Shown piece after piece: positions 30,135 through 35,576 of a DNA stretch of 64,000 nucleotides; position 1 is the stretch's first letter, and each line of letters starts with the position of its first letter. The translations under genes and the position numbers were made by a program. The notes beneath the pieces were generated by a model. The model did no database searches. It was given only the letters and a program-made list of their open reading frames with translations, and had not been told where the DNA came from. The stretch is from Desulfurellales bacterium (GTDB lineage: Bacteria; Campylobacterota_A; Desulfurellia; Desulfurellales; Hippeaceae), in contig JALVUQ010000008.1 of assembly GCA_027035575.1 (NCBI GenBank), positions 1-64,000 on the forward strand, written 5' to 3'.

Positions 30135-30577
30135 AAATATCAATAATTAACGGTCCCAATCTTAATATGTTGGGCACAAGAGAGCCTTCTTTATACGGAA
30201 ATCTAACCGTCTCTGATATAAATAGACAGATAGAGATTAAAGCCGATGAACTCGGTGTTGAGATAGACCTGTTTCAATCGAATATTGAGGGTGAAATAGT
30301 AGAAAAAATCCACAGCCTATACAACAATTTCGACGGCTTTATAATAAATGCGGCAGCTTATACACATACGAGCATAGCAATCAGAGACGCAGCTTTGTCT
30401 GTTTCTCTGCCCTTTATAGAGGTTCATCTGTCGAATGTATATAAAAGAGAACCCTTTAGGCACAAATCCTATCTTGCCGATATAGCTTTGGGTGTAATAT
30501 CCGGTTTCGGATACCTAAGCTACACTCTTGCACTGGAGGCTTTGGTTAAACACATCAAGGCTCAAGCACAAGCCTGA
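30131..30577 (+). CDS. aroQ: 3-Dehydroquinate dehydratase, type II
   Basis: Third step of the shikimate pathway. The 148-residue protein has the type II signature INGPNLNMLGTREPSLYG with the catalytic tyrosine, DLFQSNIEGEIVEKIH, GFIINAAAYTHTSIAIRDA, the catalytic histidine region IEVHLSNVYKREPFRHKS, and GFGYLSYTLAL. It overlaps the small gene upstream as ATGA. Its last 23 bp overlap the converging FGE-domain gene, so no terminator separates them. Confidence 0.95.
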   Translation: MKISIINGPNLNMLGTREPSLYGNLTVSDINRQIEIKADELGVEIDLFQSNIEGEIVEKIHSLYNNFDGFIINAAAYTHTSIAIRDAALSVSLPFIEVHLSNVYKREPFRHKSYLADIALGVISGFGYLSYTLALEALVKHIKAQAQA

Positions 30578-31646
30578 ATCCTATAAAATCGCTTATAAGA
30601 CCGGGCATATAGTTGCTTCTTGCAGAAAGCCTTGCATCCTCTTTTGTGCTGTACCAACTTCCGCCTCTTACCGATTTTGCCAAAGAGACATAAGGATTTA
30701 AATATACGGGATTATCCGTTTTACTAATCGAATAAGCTTTTGAATAGTATGTATCGTAGCACCATTCGGCGGCATTACCTATCATATCGTACAGTCCGTA
30801 TCTGTTTGGTAAAAATGAGCCTACGGGTGCGGTTGCTACATACCCGTCTTTACAGGGAAACGGTTTTTGGAGATAGCTTTTTATCTTATTATGAGCCGTA
30901 ATGTCATAGATATTCGCATACTTGCAGGCTGATTTGGCGTTATGCCAATAGGTATCCCTTTTTATTCCGGCTCTTGCGGCATATTCCCACTCCGCCTCCG
31001 TCGGCAGTCTGTATATCTCTTTTGTGTTTGCGTATAACCACTTTAAATACTGTTGTATCTGGTCCCACGAGACATTAACGACAGGTTGGTTGTCCTTGTT
31101 TAGGTTGTACAGTTTGCTCTGTCCGCTGTTGTGAGCGGCATCGAACATCTTAAACTGTTTGTTTGTGACTTCGTACTGACCCATAAAAAAACCGTTTACA
31201 CACACCTTGTGCGGCGGTTTTTCATCTTTTCTTGCCAAAGAATCGTCTTTGTTTGCACCCATAATATAACACCCGCCTGGTATGTATATAAACTTCATTC
31301 CGAGGGCATTTGTATAGTGTCGAGGACGTACAAGCAAGCTCCAGGTTGCACCATTCGGCAAACCGTTTGGAAAATCCTTAAATACATCCCAATATATTTT
31401 TTTATTCAATCCTGCACTGACAAGCCCGACATCGCCTTCAAGATGCAGGTTTCTGGTTGAATAAATATGACCTTTGGTTCTGATTTGTAATCCTACGACA
31501 AACTGTTTCGTACTATTGCCCGGTATGTCGTAATAAAACACCATATAATTGCCTTCAACTCTTGCCGATGCGTTTTTATAGTTTGCGGCTTTGACATTTA
31601 TTGAAAAAACGATAATAACAAACAGCAGCGATAAATATTTAAGCAT
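30555..31646 (-). CDS. Secreted FGE-sulfatase/SUMF1-domain protein, non-catalytic type
   Basis: A 363-residue exported protein. The signal peptide MLKYLSLLFVIIVFSINVKA is followed by a beta-rich domain of about 90 residues and then an FGE-like domain (about 110-363): MKFIYIPGGCYIMGANKDD, FFMGQYEVTNKQFKMFD, RLPTEAEWEYAARAG, YDMIGNAAEWCYD, SVRGGSWYSTKEDARLSARS and IGFRLV. The cysteine pair of true formylglycine-generating enzymes is missing from the GGSW...R.AARS segment, so it is not expected to oxidise sulfatases. Family relatives act as cell-surface lipoproteins, gliding factors or binding domains; the role here is unknown. Confidence 0.82.
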   Translation of the reverse strand: MLKYLSLLFVIIVFSINVKAANYKNASARVEGNYMVFYYDIPGNSTKQFVVGLQIRTKGHIYSTRNLHLEGDVGLVSAGLNKKIYWDVFKDFPNGLPNGATWSLLVRPRHYTNALGMKFIYIPGGCYIMGANKDDSLARKDEKPPHKVCVNGFFMGQYEVTNKQFKMFDAAHNSGQSKLYNLNKDNQPVVNVSWDQIQQYLKWLYANTKEIYRLPTEAEWEYAARAGIKRDTYWHNAKSACKYANIYDITAHNKIKSYLQKPFPCKDGYVATAPVGSFLPNRYGLYDMIGNAAEWCYDTYYSKAYSISKTDNPVYLNPYVSLAKSVRGGSWYSTKEDARLSARSNYMPGLISDFIGFRLVLEP

Positions 31647-32060: not shown

Positions 32061-32507
32061 ATGCTTAGAAAATCGGCATTTGTAATAATCATACTTCTAT
32101 TGACCTTGCAGGTTGCCAAATCTCAATCAATAGAACAGCTCTTTAAAAATAACAGCAAAAACAGCTTTGAAACAATTTTGTCGTTAGCAAAAAAAGGTAA
32201 TGTAGAGGCTATGTATTATGTCGGTCTTTCTTATGAAATAGGTCAGGGCACAAGATTAAATTACAAAAAAGCCTTTATCTGGTATAAGAAGGCTGCCAAT
32301 ACCGGCTGGAGCAGGGCTCAATACAATCTGGCTTTTTTATATAAGTACGGCTACGGAACAAAAAAGAATATGATTCAATCATACAAGTGGTTTTATATAT
32401 CCGGTCATATCTATGAGTGCGATTTGGATGCTCAACAGATGAGTGAAAAAGAGGTAGAAAAAGCCGTAGCCGAGGCTCTGGAGTGGGAGCAAAATCATAA
32501 TGGGTAA
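32061..32507 (+). CDS. Secreted Sel1-like repeat protein
   Basis: A 148-residue exported protein. The signal peptide MLRKSAFVIIILLLTLQVAK ends near SQS, followed by two Sel1-type helical repeats: GNVEAMYYVGLSYEIGQGTR then YKKAFIWYKKAANTGWSRAQ and YNLAFLYKYGYGTKKNMIQS. Such repeats bind other proteins, often in the envelope; no partner can be named. No ribosome-binding site is visible upstream, and the promoter suggests a leaderless mRNA. It is 36 bp from the first MutS-like gene and may be co-transcribed with the pair. Confidence 0.82.
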   Translation: MLRKSAFVIIILLLTLQVAKSQSIEQLFKNNSKNSFETILSLAKKGNVEAMYYVGLSYEIGQGTRLNYKKAFIWYKKAANTGWSRAQYNLAFLYKYGYGTKKNMIQSYKWFYISGHIYECDLDAQQMSEKEVEKAVAEALEWEQNHNG

Positions 32508-32543: not shown

Positions 32544-34076
32544 ATGACATTCAAAAGCATCCTATTCAAAAAAGAGGAGGAGTTTGACCCCTCCCAACAA
32601 GAGCCGAAGTTTTTTGCAGATTTAAACCTAAACCTGATAGTTGACGAGATAACAAAAACAAAAGAAGCCTACGATTTAAAGCCGTTTTTTTATCACAGTC
32701 TTAAAAGTGTGGACAACATAACGTACCGCCAGAAGATTTTAAAGGATATAGAACAAGAGGACGTGTTCGGCGCTTTAAAAGAGTTTGAGTCAGCGATGAA
32801 TGCGGTAAAAAGCGGATTGGAAAAGGTTGAAAAACTTTCCTGCAAATATCAAAAGGAGCGTTGGTTTCTCGATTCGGTGGATTTGTACTGCTACGGGGTT
32901 GTAAAGCTGCATTCATCTCTGTCTTCGCTAACGGTTAATTCCGAAGGACTTTTGTCTTTTTCCTCTTATCTTGAATCGTATATTGCATCGGATAAATTTA
33001 AAGAGATGCTTGAACACACAAAAATACTGAAACAAGGTTTGGATGAGGTTAAATATACACTCTTTATAAAAGAAAACAAAATAAGAGTGGAAAATTATAA
33101 AAACGAAGAGGATTACGGGAAAACAATTCTCGAGGTGTTCGAACGTTTCAGGCAGTTTGATGTTGAGGATTTTAAAGCTGAATTTCACAAATCAGAATAT
33201 GCAAACCACATAGAAATAGAAATTTTGAAGTGCGTGGCTAAATTAAACCGGGCTCTCTTTGATGATTTGGAAGGGTACTGTTTGACATACGAAAACTTTA
33301 TCGATGAATATATTAAAAAGTTCAACAAAGAAGTGCAGTTTTACATCTCTTATCTGGAGTATATCAAACCTTTGGAGGATTTGCAGCTTAGGTTTTGCTA
33401 CCCTCAAACGGTTCAATCCAAAAACGACATACAAAACCAAGAGGGCTTCGATATGGCTTTGGGGCATAAACTTGCAAAAGAAGACAGAGCAGTTGTCAGC
33501 AACGATTTTTATTTAAAAGGCAAAGAGCGCATTATTATAGTAACAGGACCCAATCAAGGAGGAAAAACGACATTTGCAAGGGCATTCGGTCAGATACATT
33601 TTTTGGCCTCTTTGGGATTAAAGGTTCCGGGCTCAAAAGCCAAACTTCTGTTGTTCGATAATATCTTTACCCATTTTGAGAAGGAAGAGTCAATTCAAAC
33701 CTTAATAGGCAAACTGGAAAACGACCTTGTGAGGATAAAGGATATTTTAGAAAAAGCCACAGACAGAAGTATAGTTATTATGAATGAAATATTCTCATCA
33801 ACCAGCCTTCACGATGCACTGTTTTTGGCTCAACAGGTGTTAAAAGAAATAATTGAAGCCGATTCCTTATGTGTTTTTGTGACATTTCTCGATGCGCTTA
33901 CCGAATTAAGCGATAAAATTGTGAGTATGACAAGCACCGTTAAAGATGACGATGTAAGCTTGAGAACGTATAAAATCATAAGAAGGCAGGCAGACGGCAT
34001 TGCCTATGCAATATCGATAGCAAAAAAACACAGCTTAACCTATGAATGTCTCATTGACAGGTTGAAGAGAAACTAA
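32544..34076 (+). CDS. MutS-family ATPase-domain protein A (first of tandem pair)
   Basis: A 510-residue protein whose last ~200 residues are a MutS-type ABC ATPase. Walker A is GPNQGGKTT at 335-343 (standard GPNMGGKST), Walker B ends SIVIMNEIFSST with Asn414-Glu415 where MutS has Asp-Glu, and the switch segment reads FVTFLDALTEL with Phe448 replacing the usual histidine of the ATH(Y/F).EL motif. The first ~325 residues are helical, comparable to the MutS core/lever region, with no mismatch-recognition or connector domain. The segment TYRQKILKD near residue 60 recurs in protein B. It is unlikely to do ordinary mismatch repair; function unknown. It is likely to pair with protein B, 3 bp downstream. 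Confidence 0.8.
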   Translation: MTFKSILFKKEEEFDPSQQEPKFFADLNLNLIVDEITKTKEAYDLKPFFYHSLKSVDNITYRQKILKDIEQEDVFGALKEFESAMNAVKSGLEKVEKLSCKYQKERWFLDSVDLYCYGVVKLHSSLSSLTVNSEGLLSFSSYLESYIASDKFKEMLEHTKILKQGLDEVKYTLFIKENKIRVENYKNEEDYGKTILEVFERFRQFDVEDFKAEFHKSEYANHIEIEILKCVAKLNRALFDDLEGYCLTYENFIDEYIKKFNKEVQFYISYLEYIKPLEDLQLRFCYPQTVQSKNDIQNQEGFDMALGHKLAKEDRAVVSNDFYLKGKERIIIVTGPNQGGKTTFARAFGQIHFLASLGLKVPGSKAKLLLFDNIFTHFEKEESIQTLIGKLENDLVRIKDILEKATDRSIVIMNEIFSSTSLHDALFLAQQVLKEIIEADSLCVFVTFLDALTELSDKIVSMTSTVKDDDVSLRTYKIIRRQADGIAYAISIAKKHSLTYECLIDRLKRN

Positions 34077-34079
34077 AAA

Positions 34080-35576
34080 ATGAAAGTGTTTTTGATGTAT
34101 AAGGATAGGGATTTCAACTTAAACTCTCCTTTGTGCGAACTGTCTGAAAATACGGCTTACGATTTGGAGTTGGATACGATTTTCAAGGCTATGGCAAAGG
34201 AAGACGAATTTTTCTATAAGGTTTCAAAGAAAGCCGTTTTGGAGAGCCTTGTTGATGTCGAGACCATACTCTACAGGCAGGAAGTTTTGAAGGATTGCAT
34301 TAAAAACGAGGATGCCGTAAAAAAGCTGTATGACATAGCCGTTCAATCAATAGAGTTTGAAAAGAAAGCCTACTTTCTGTTTTTTAACAAATACCCGGAA
34401 AGTGTGCTTCACAGCTCTGTCAGGCTTATGGAGATGTTCACCGAAACCCTAAACGATTTAAAAAATCTTGCCGTTGAAAATAGGGATAAATTTTCCTCCG
34501 AAGGGTTTAAACGTTTTTTTGAAATGGTTGAGAAAGAGCTTAGCGATGACTATTTTGCATTGATTAAAAAGCACCTGAAAAACCTGGAGTTTAGAGGCGG
34601 TATGTTAATTAGTGCCGAGTTGGGCAGCGGAAACAGAGGTAAAAATTTTATTTTGAGAGAACTTAAAGAGGAAAACAGAAGCTTTGTTGAGAGAATATTT
34701 TCAAAAAGGAAGGACTCATATTTAATCACTATACACGAACGAGACGAAGCAGGTGCAAAAGCACTTGGAGAATTAAGGAATAAAGGTATAAACTCCGTTG
34801 CGAATGCCGTCTTTAAATCAGCCAAACATATATTGAATTTTTTTGAAATCTTAAAAACAGAAGTGGCGTTTTATCTTGCCGCTGTAAATTTGTATAAGAA
34901 ACTTAAATCACTAAACGAGCAGATATGCTTCCCCGTTCCGCTTAAAAAAGAAACAAGAAAACTGGTTTTTAGTGGTTTATACGATGTATGCCTTGCTTTG
35001 ACCTTAAATAAAAAGGTTGTGGATAATACGCTTGACACTAAGGATAAAAACATCTCCCTGTTTATAATAACCGGAGCAAATCACGGCGGAAAGTCAACAT
35101 TTTTAAGGAGTGTGGGGTTGGCAAAACTGATGATGCAGTGCGGTATGTTTGTTGCCGCCGACTCTTTTTCGTCAAACATAAACAGCAATATATTTACGCA
35201 CTACAAAAGAAAAGAGGATGTAGAGATGGAAAGCGGTAAATTTGACGAAGAGATGAAAAGGATGAGCCTTATTGTTGACAAACTGAAAAAAGACTCCCTT
35301 GTTCTGTTTAACGAATCGTTTGCATCTACAAACGAGATAGAGGGCTCGGAGGTTTCAAAACAGATAGTTTCGGCTTTAATGGAGTATGGTACGGAGATGT
35401 TGTTTGTAACGCATATGTACAAATTTGCCGGCGATTTCTATGAAAAAGGTTTAAGCAGCGTAATGTTCTTGAGAGCAGAAAGAAAGGATGACGGCAGCAG
35501 AACATACAAAATAGAAGAGGGTAAACCCCTAAAAACAAGTCACGGCAAGGACATATACCGGAAGGTATTCGGATAG
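34080..35576 (+). CDS. MutS-family ATPase-domain protein B (second of tandem pair)
   Basis: A 498-residue paralogue of the gene just upstream. It has a helical region to about residue 325, containing LYRQEVLKD at about 64-72, then Walker A GANHGGKST at 332-340, Walker B SLVLFNESFASTNEIEG with Asn411-Glu412, and FVTHMYKFAG, which keeps the switch histidine (His445) lost in protein A. The Asn in Walker B is shared by both proteins. One subunit with and one without the switch histidine suggests a heterodimer with unequal ATP sites, as in eukaryotic MutS homologues. There is no DNA-clamp or mismatch domain by eye. It follows protein A after 3 bp; tRNA-Leu is 91 bp downstream. Confidence 0.8.
   Translation: MKVFLMYKDRDFNLNSPLCELSENTAYDLELDTIFKAMAKEDEFFYKVSKKAVLESLVDVETILYRQEVLKDCIKNEDAVKKLYDIAVQSIEFEKKAYFLFFNKYPESVLHSSVRLMEMFTETLNDLKNLAVENRDKFSSEGFKRFFEMVEKELSDDYFALIKKHLKNLEFRGGMLISAELGSGNRGKNFILRELKEENRSFVERIFSKRKDSYLITIHERDEAGAKALGELRNKGINSVANAVFKSAKHILNFFEILKTEVAFYLAAVNLYKKLKSLNEQICFPVPLKKETRKLVFSGLYDVCLALTLNKKVVDNTLDTKDKNISLFIITGANHGGKSTFLRSVGLAKLMMQCGMFVAADSFSSNINSNIFTHYKRKEDVEMESGKFDEEMKRMSLIVDKLKKDSLVLFNESFASTNEIEGSEVSKQIVSALMEYGTEMLFVTHMYKFAGDFYEKGLSSVMFLRAERKDDGSRTYKIEEGKPLKTSHGKDIYRKVFG

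Follow-up and report, generated by a model that had tools for sequence, protein, structure and literature searches.

Two adjacent genes on the forward strand of the window (the whole stretch of 64,000 nucleotides from a Desulfurellales genome that was analysed) encode MutS-like ATPase subunits, hereafter termed A and B. Both open reading frames and the 3-bp gap between them were confirmed, and the residues named in the first-pass annotation of this DNA (N414-E415 and F448 in A, N411-E412 and H445 in B) were exact when read from the DNA. The features of the locus are listed below.

32061..32507, + strand: Sel1-repeat gene with signal peptide, 36 bp 5' of A
32544..34076, + strand: gene of protein A, 510 aa, MutS-like ATPase subunit with switch Phe; Pfam MutS_V only (85 bits); AlphaFold pLDDT 88
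33546..33569, + strand: Walker A of A, GPNQGGKT, conserved among A proteins
33708..33713, + strand: G389-K390 of A in place of the MutS signature S-T
33783..33788, + strand: N414-E415 of A, Walker B Asp replaced by Asn (86/86 A proteins)
33885..33887, + strand: Phe448 of A at the switch-histidine position (86/86 A proteins)
34080..35576, + strand: gene of protein B, 498 aa, MutS-like ATPase subunit with switch His; Pfam MutS_V only (84 bits); AlphaFold pLDDT 87
35073..35096, + strand: Walker A of B, GANHGGKS
35235..35240, + strand: G386-K387 of B in place of the MutS signature S-T (97/97 B proteins)
35310..35315, + strand: N411-E412 of B, Walker B Asp replaced by Asn (96/97 B proteins)
35412..35414, + strand: switch His445 of B (97/97 B proteins)

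Gene surroundings, domains and fold of A and B

The tRNA genes and the Sel1 gene lie at the positions given in the first-pass annotation, which regarded them, together with the pair, as an isolated module of unknown purpose. This view is not supported, because across phyla the pair belongs to operons with fluoride riboswitches. Sel1 and tRNA neighbours recur only in the closest relative, the sister genome G002, so that conservation of this arrangement ends at the genus. The Sel1 gene is not a conserved partner of the pair, and it may be co-transcribed with A in the window's genus. A scan for promoters and terminators at the locus yielded no interpretable signal, its promoter matches being no more frequent than expected by chance. 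Further upstream, positions 30555-31646 encode a protein resembling the formylglycine-generating enzyme, which has a signal-like stretch at its N-terminus and a GldK/PorK-like match, and this gene is found at the same place in the sister genome. Three MutS_V proteins were detected in the window's genome, namely A, B and a MutS2-like protein of 766 aa, and thus no canonical MutS1 was seen.

Each of the two proteins consists of a helical N-terminal core and a MutS ATPase, with MutS_V as the sole Pfam domain and MutS_I to MutS_IV absent. Their description as paralogues is borne out by an alignment of nearly full length (hhalign, 449 columns, E 6e-45), in which the common YRQ..LKD motif is present. 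The reported lack of mismatch, connector and clamp domains also agrees with the Pfam result and with the AlphaFold models, in which the mismatch and connector domains are missing and a full clamp domain is not seen; a predicted hairpin at residues 171-184 of A would be a clamp vestige at most. The models match the folds of MutS, MutS-beta and MutS2. By TM-score on the target, the best compact match of A is the MutS2 core (7vuf, TM 0.64), and 7qv3 (MutS2 on collided disomes) is among its top structural matches. In a profile comparison, A aligns with MutS2 across core and ATPase. The median pI is 5.8 for A and 6.3 for B, and no strongly conserved basic surface was found in A.

Known MutS families fit the two proteins poorly. 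A and B score 79-99 bits against MutS1 (PRK05399, cut-off 480) and 73-78 bits against MutS2 (TIGR01069, cut-off 400), and they end after the ATPase without an Smr match. KamC (NF052383), the reactivase of lysine 5,6-aminomutase, is a MutS-like ATPase of about 500 aa with, by its family name, a non-DNA job. An assignment to KamC was rejected on scores of 61 (A) and 82 bits (B) against a cut-off of 300, and the KamC model ranks ordinary MutS2 higher; its target enzyme (PF09043) had no match in the window's own genome, and the control genomes were likewise without a match. An anti-phage defence system was rejected as well, since PADLOC gave only weak generic ATPase matches (best 20 bits), as was a phage origin, the scan of close relatives having yielded no confirmed viral relative.

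Obligate pairing and altered ATP sites

A profile search across genomes, as suggested in the first-pass annotation, found A and B together and in A-B order wherever the neighbouring gene was readable. Within the window's class, A is present in 12 of 25 genomes and B adjoins it in all 12, with A first. A contig search yielded more than 540 stretches encoding relatives, which is a lower bound. Among the matches listed, the 79 loci retained from outside the genus of the window all have an A sequence directly upstream of B, the A frame being broken or cut by the contig end in some of them, and the two genes overlap by 4 bp at 60 of the 79. No orphan A or B of the pair family was seen in 386 genomes spread over Bacteria. 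Pair homologues also occur on 48 PLSDB plasmids, 18 of which are from Klebsiella. The distances within A and within B are correlated (r=0.96, 82 loci), as expected of partners and equally of shared descent.

The ATP sites of the two subunits deviate from those of other MutS proteins in three respects. In MutS, the Walker B aspartate positions Mg2+, and the signature loop carries S-T and reaches the nucleotide of the other subunit. The replacement of this aspartate by asparagine, noted before for the window's proteins, holds for 86/86 A and 96/97 B sequences, while Walker B reads DE in every MutS, MutS2 and KamC control examined. The split at the switch position is conserved too, with Phe in 86/86 A and His in 97/97 B, and lies far beyond chance. 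The third change, G-K in the signature loop, is found in 97/97 B and in most A sequences. Together, the NE Walker B, the GK signature and the single switch histidine mean that both composite sites are changed and that the histidine is kept in just one. Since the pairing is obligate and the switch split is conserved, it is likely that A and B form an obligate heterodimer, in which we infer one catalytic site (B) and one regulatory site (A).

Several features of this arrangement have counterparts elsewhere. The MutS2 core (Thermus MutS2, 7vuf) likewise combines a helical core with a MutS ATPase and has no mismatch domain, but A-B lacks KOW and Smr domains, has two different subunits, and carries NE rather than DE, GK rather than the signature ST, and one switch Phe. 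KamC, too, has DE. Two unequal ATP sites in a dimer of the MutS fold are known from MSH2-MSH3 (MutS-beta), which is among the top fold matches, and from other eukaryotic heterodimers; in contrast, the predicted A-B dimer is bacterial, linked to fluoride, and without mismatch, connector and full clamp domains. The same exchange of the Walker B aspartate for asparagine is present in E. coli MutS D693N (PDB 3k0s), there as a laboratory mutation, whereas it is natural and fixed in A and B.

A distant single-gene relative was found in two of the 386 genomes (L188:4092-5822, also L144 and L145; genomes G119 and G257). It shares the NE Walker B with A and B, alone in this among the sequences read outside the pair, and keeps the switch histidine. 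Neither a B partner nor a fluoride riboswitch was found in these two genomes. Possibly, it represents a homodimeric ancestor or a sister family.

Fluoride riboswitches and neighbouring genes

The fluoride riboswitch (Rfam RF01734) was found at 11 of the first 11 loci tested, and a custom model was built from these. With this model, 45 of 71 usable loci proved to have a riboswitch within 450 nt 5' of A, and 57 of 71 have one on the same strand upstream of A; without the 11 training loci, the numbers are 36/60 and 46/60. Outside the class, RF01734 is present in 7/7 pair-bearing genomes versus 66/354 pair-free ones (Fisher p=1.1e-5). Recurrent neighbours across phyla include CrcB, enolase, phosphoglycerate mutase (PGAM), a Na+/H+ antiporter and DUF190, and furthermore a universal stress protein, a dynamin-like GTPase and formate-hydrogenlyase-type genes. 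Most of them belong to the known fluoride gene set (PMC2864571, PMC5533749, PMC11139923).

Individual loci illustrate this context. At L187, the order is riboswitch, Na/H antiporter, DUF190, CrcB, two further DUF190-type genes, A and B. A genome of the window's own order (G018, locus L044) has riboswitch, dynamin, A, B and enolase. On the E. coli plasmid p027_SK3a (L189), riboswitch, antiporter and universal stress protein precede A and B, and the pair is adjoined by crcB, gpmA, eno and a pyrophosphatase-type gene, a neighbour set which confers fluoride resistance in E. cloacae FRM according to knockout (PMC5533749). On a Burkholderia plasmid, the pair lies inside an annotated fluoride island with RF01734. 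From this gene context, we are confident that A-B constitutes a bacterial fluoride-response family. As riboswitch and fluoride-defence genes accompany the pair in most genomes examined, a role in fluoride survival rather than in mismatch repair is probable. As a separate observation, the fluoride island on p027_SK3a is large: three fluoride riboswitches accompany the A-B pair there, along with crcB, CLC, eno, gpmA and the pyrophosphatase-type gene.

A connection between mutS and this riboswitch was reported by Weinberg et al. in 2010, who listed mutS among the genes of the crcB-motif RNA (PMC2864571). Their gene very probably belongs to the same family, being represented by MutS-annotated genes directly 3' of RF01734 in many phyla. 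It was reported as a DNA-repair gene, whereas A-B is a two-gene, non-mismatch pair with unequal ATP sites; unlike the 2010 examples, the window's pair has no riboswitch. The link between 'mutS' and the crcB RNA is thus already known. Apparently new are the two-subunit architecture, the obligate pairing, the fixed active-site changes and the enolase enrichment described below, none of which was met in the literature searched (Baker 2012 being outside its scope). The control of a 'DNA repair' gene by a fluoride riboswitch has been unexplained since 2010, and the findings on A-B make this puzzle testable.

In order to separate neighbours of the pair from those of the regulon, 40 riboswitch loci from pair-free genomes were compared with 77 pair loci for 14 gene families; the two sets differ in taxa, which affects the enolase and PGAM comparisons. 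Enolase, chosen as a candidate ahead of the test, is found near 20/77 pair loci versus 2/40 control loci (p=0.006), an enrichment which fails correction for 14 families (0.0056 x 14 = 0.08). PGAM is near 10/77 versus 0/40 (p=0.015, uncorrected for 14 families). The enrichment of enolase near the pair is modest, and these enolase genes may simply be spare copies. The genes for dynamin, CrcB, DUF190 and MFS proteins are equally common at pair-free riboswitch loci and therefore mark the regulon, not the pair.

The window's copy is set apart by its lack of a riboswitch. Rfam detected none near the pair at the gathering threshold or at E<=5, the best match of the custom model reached 11 bits (E 1.1), and an overlooked riboswitch was rejected after three search variants without a match. 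Within the class, a riboswitch is nearby at only 1 of 12 pairs and absent near the other 11, and a search of the 25 class genomes gave no CrcB. The only RF01734 of the window's genome lies on contig 86 (L179:8467-8534), before an NADH-dehydrogenase-like (Hyf-type) operon. In a tree of B, members of the class branch at three or more separate positions. The window's pair shares 52-58% identity with the Thermoanaerobacter and Moorella pairs that are under riboswitch control, and is thereby nearer to them than to the majority of the other pairs in its own family; its identity to a four-genome group of that family is 38-46%. The simplest reading is that the pair was gained horizontally and later lost its riboswitch. 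The pair presumably lost, or never had, a riboswitch of its own and would have to be expressed otherwise. Because its own locus is without a riboswitch, we infer a fluoride function in the window's organism from the family. Re-use of the Desulfurellaceae pair for a non-fluoride job after riboswitch loss would suit the 11 riboswitch-free class pairs and the gene contexts, which vary between genomes, but appears quite unlikely given that every catalytic peculiarity is retained, that the riboswitch-controlled pairs named above are closer to the window's pair than most others of its family, and that many fluoride exporters are also without a riboswitch (review PMC11139923).

Candidate functions of the pair

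By analogy, A-B may tentatively be regarded as a heterodimeric, ATP-driven clamp which restores fluoride-trapped protein targets, a reading to which we give somewhat less than even weight. In such a machine, ATP binding would close two lever arms around the target and hydrolysis, at the catalytic B site under the regulatory A site, would reopen them. The target would be a protein and not a mismatch; this is favoured by the enrichment of enolase and PGAM, the absence of DNA-reading domains and the lack of a conserved basic surface. Most likely, it would be an enzyme locked in a Mg-F-phosphate complex, for which enolase is the leading candidate, although its role as the actual target, suggested by gene neighbourhood, is rather unlikely. 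The Walker B exchange may spare the machine itself from ADP-Mg-fluoride trapping, and a weak Mg ligand together with a trans lysine in the ATP sites would make it resistant. The full combination, in which A-B reactivates enolase (or a comparable Mg-phosphate enzyme) after inhibition by fluoride and has ATP sites altered against trapping, is about as doubtful as enolase itself. Against a reactivase speaks its basis in an analogy to KamC, whose profile scores ordinary MutS2 at about 220 bits versus about 60-80 for A and B. In addition, the window's own pair lacks a riboswitch, one being near only 1/12 class pairs.

The main rival is ribosome rescue, since MutS2, which has the same core, acts on ribosomes that have collided, and GTPases are trapped by metal fluorides. 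Fluoride would trap translation GTPases as GDP-metal-fluoride, and A-B would clamp, split or clear the stalled ribosomes. The structural matches of A to 7vuf and 7qv3 and the MutS2-like domain content, core and ATPase without a mismatch domain, are in line with this idea. It is nevertheless unlikely, as KOW and Smr domains are missing from both proteins, a conserved basic patch is not seen at median pI values below 7, and translation genes do not recur near the pair.

Less support than for a protein reactivase or ribosome rescue exists for DNA repair, in the form of a fluoride-induced repair or anti-recombination factor on non-mismatch DNA structures. The E. coli chromosome encodes a MutS, and the pair is found in this host on a plasmid, hence it does not stand in for a missing MutS. 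Membership in the MutS family and the suggestion of a crcB regulon that responds to DNA-damaging stress (Weinberg 2010, PMC2864571) point towards DNA, but the missing mismatch and connector domains, a clamp reduced to a short hairpin in A at most, and recurrent neighbours from transport and glycolysis instead of DNA repair make this improbable. A role in membrane or ion homeostasis under fluoride or proton stress, together with the dynamin-like GTPase which is near 19/77 pair loci and in the same operon as the pair in G018 and others, is very unlikely, because riboswitches without the pair have dynamin nearby just as often (10/40, p=1). Dynamin is hence a general fluoride gene, for which reason it was rejected as the pair's specific partner.

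If the proposed reactivase mechanism is true, cells would free fluoride-locked enzymes, beyond exporting fluoride and making more enzyme, and reactivation of enolase would be a function new to the MutS fold. The findings on A-B would also correct a common annotation, as the pair genes on Klebsiella, Citrobacter and E. coli plasmids are entered as 'DNA mismatch repair protein MutS'.

Apart from the pair, an MFS transporter recurs near fluoride riboswitches with or without A-B (L052, L058, L114, L121 and about 17 more loci) and may be an unrecognised fluoride-response transporter.
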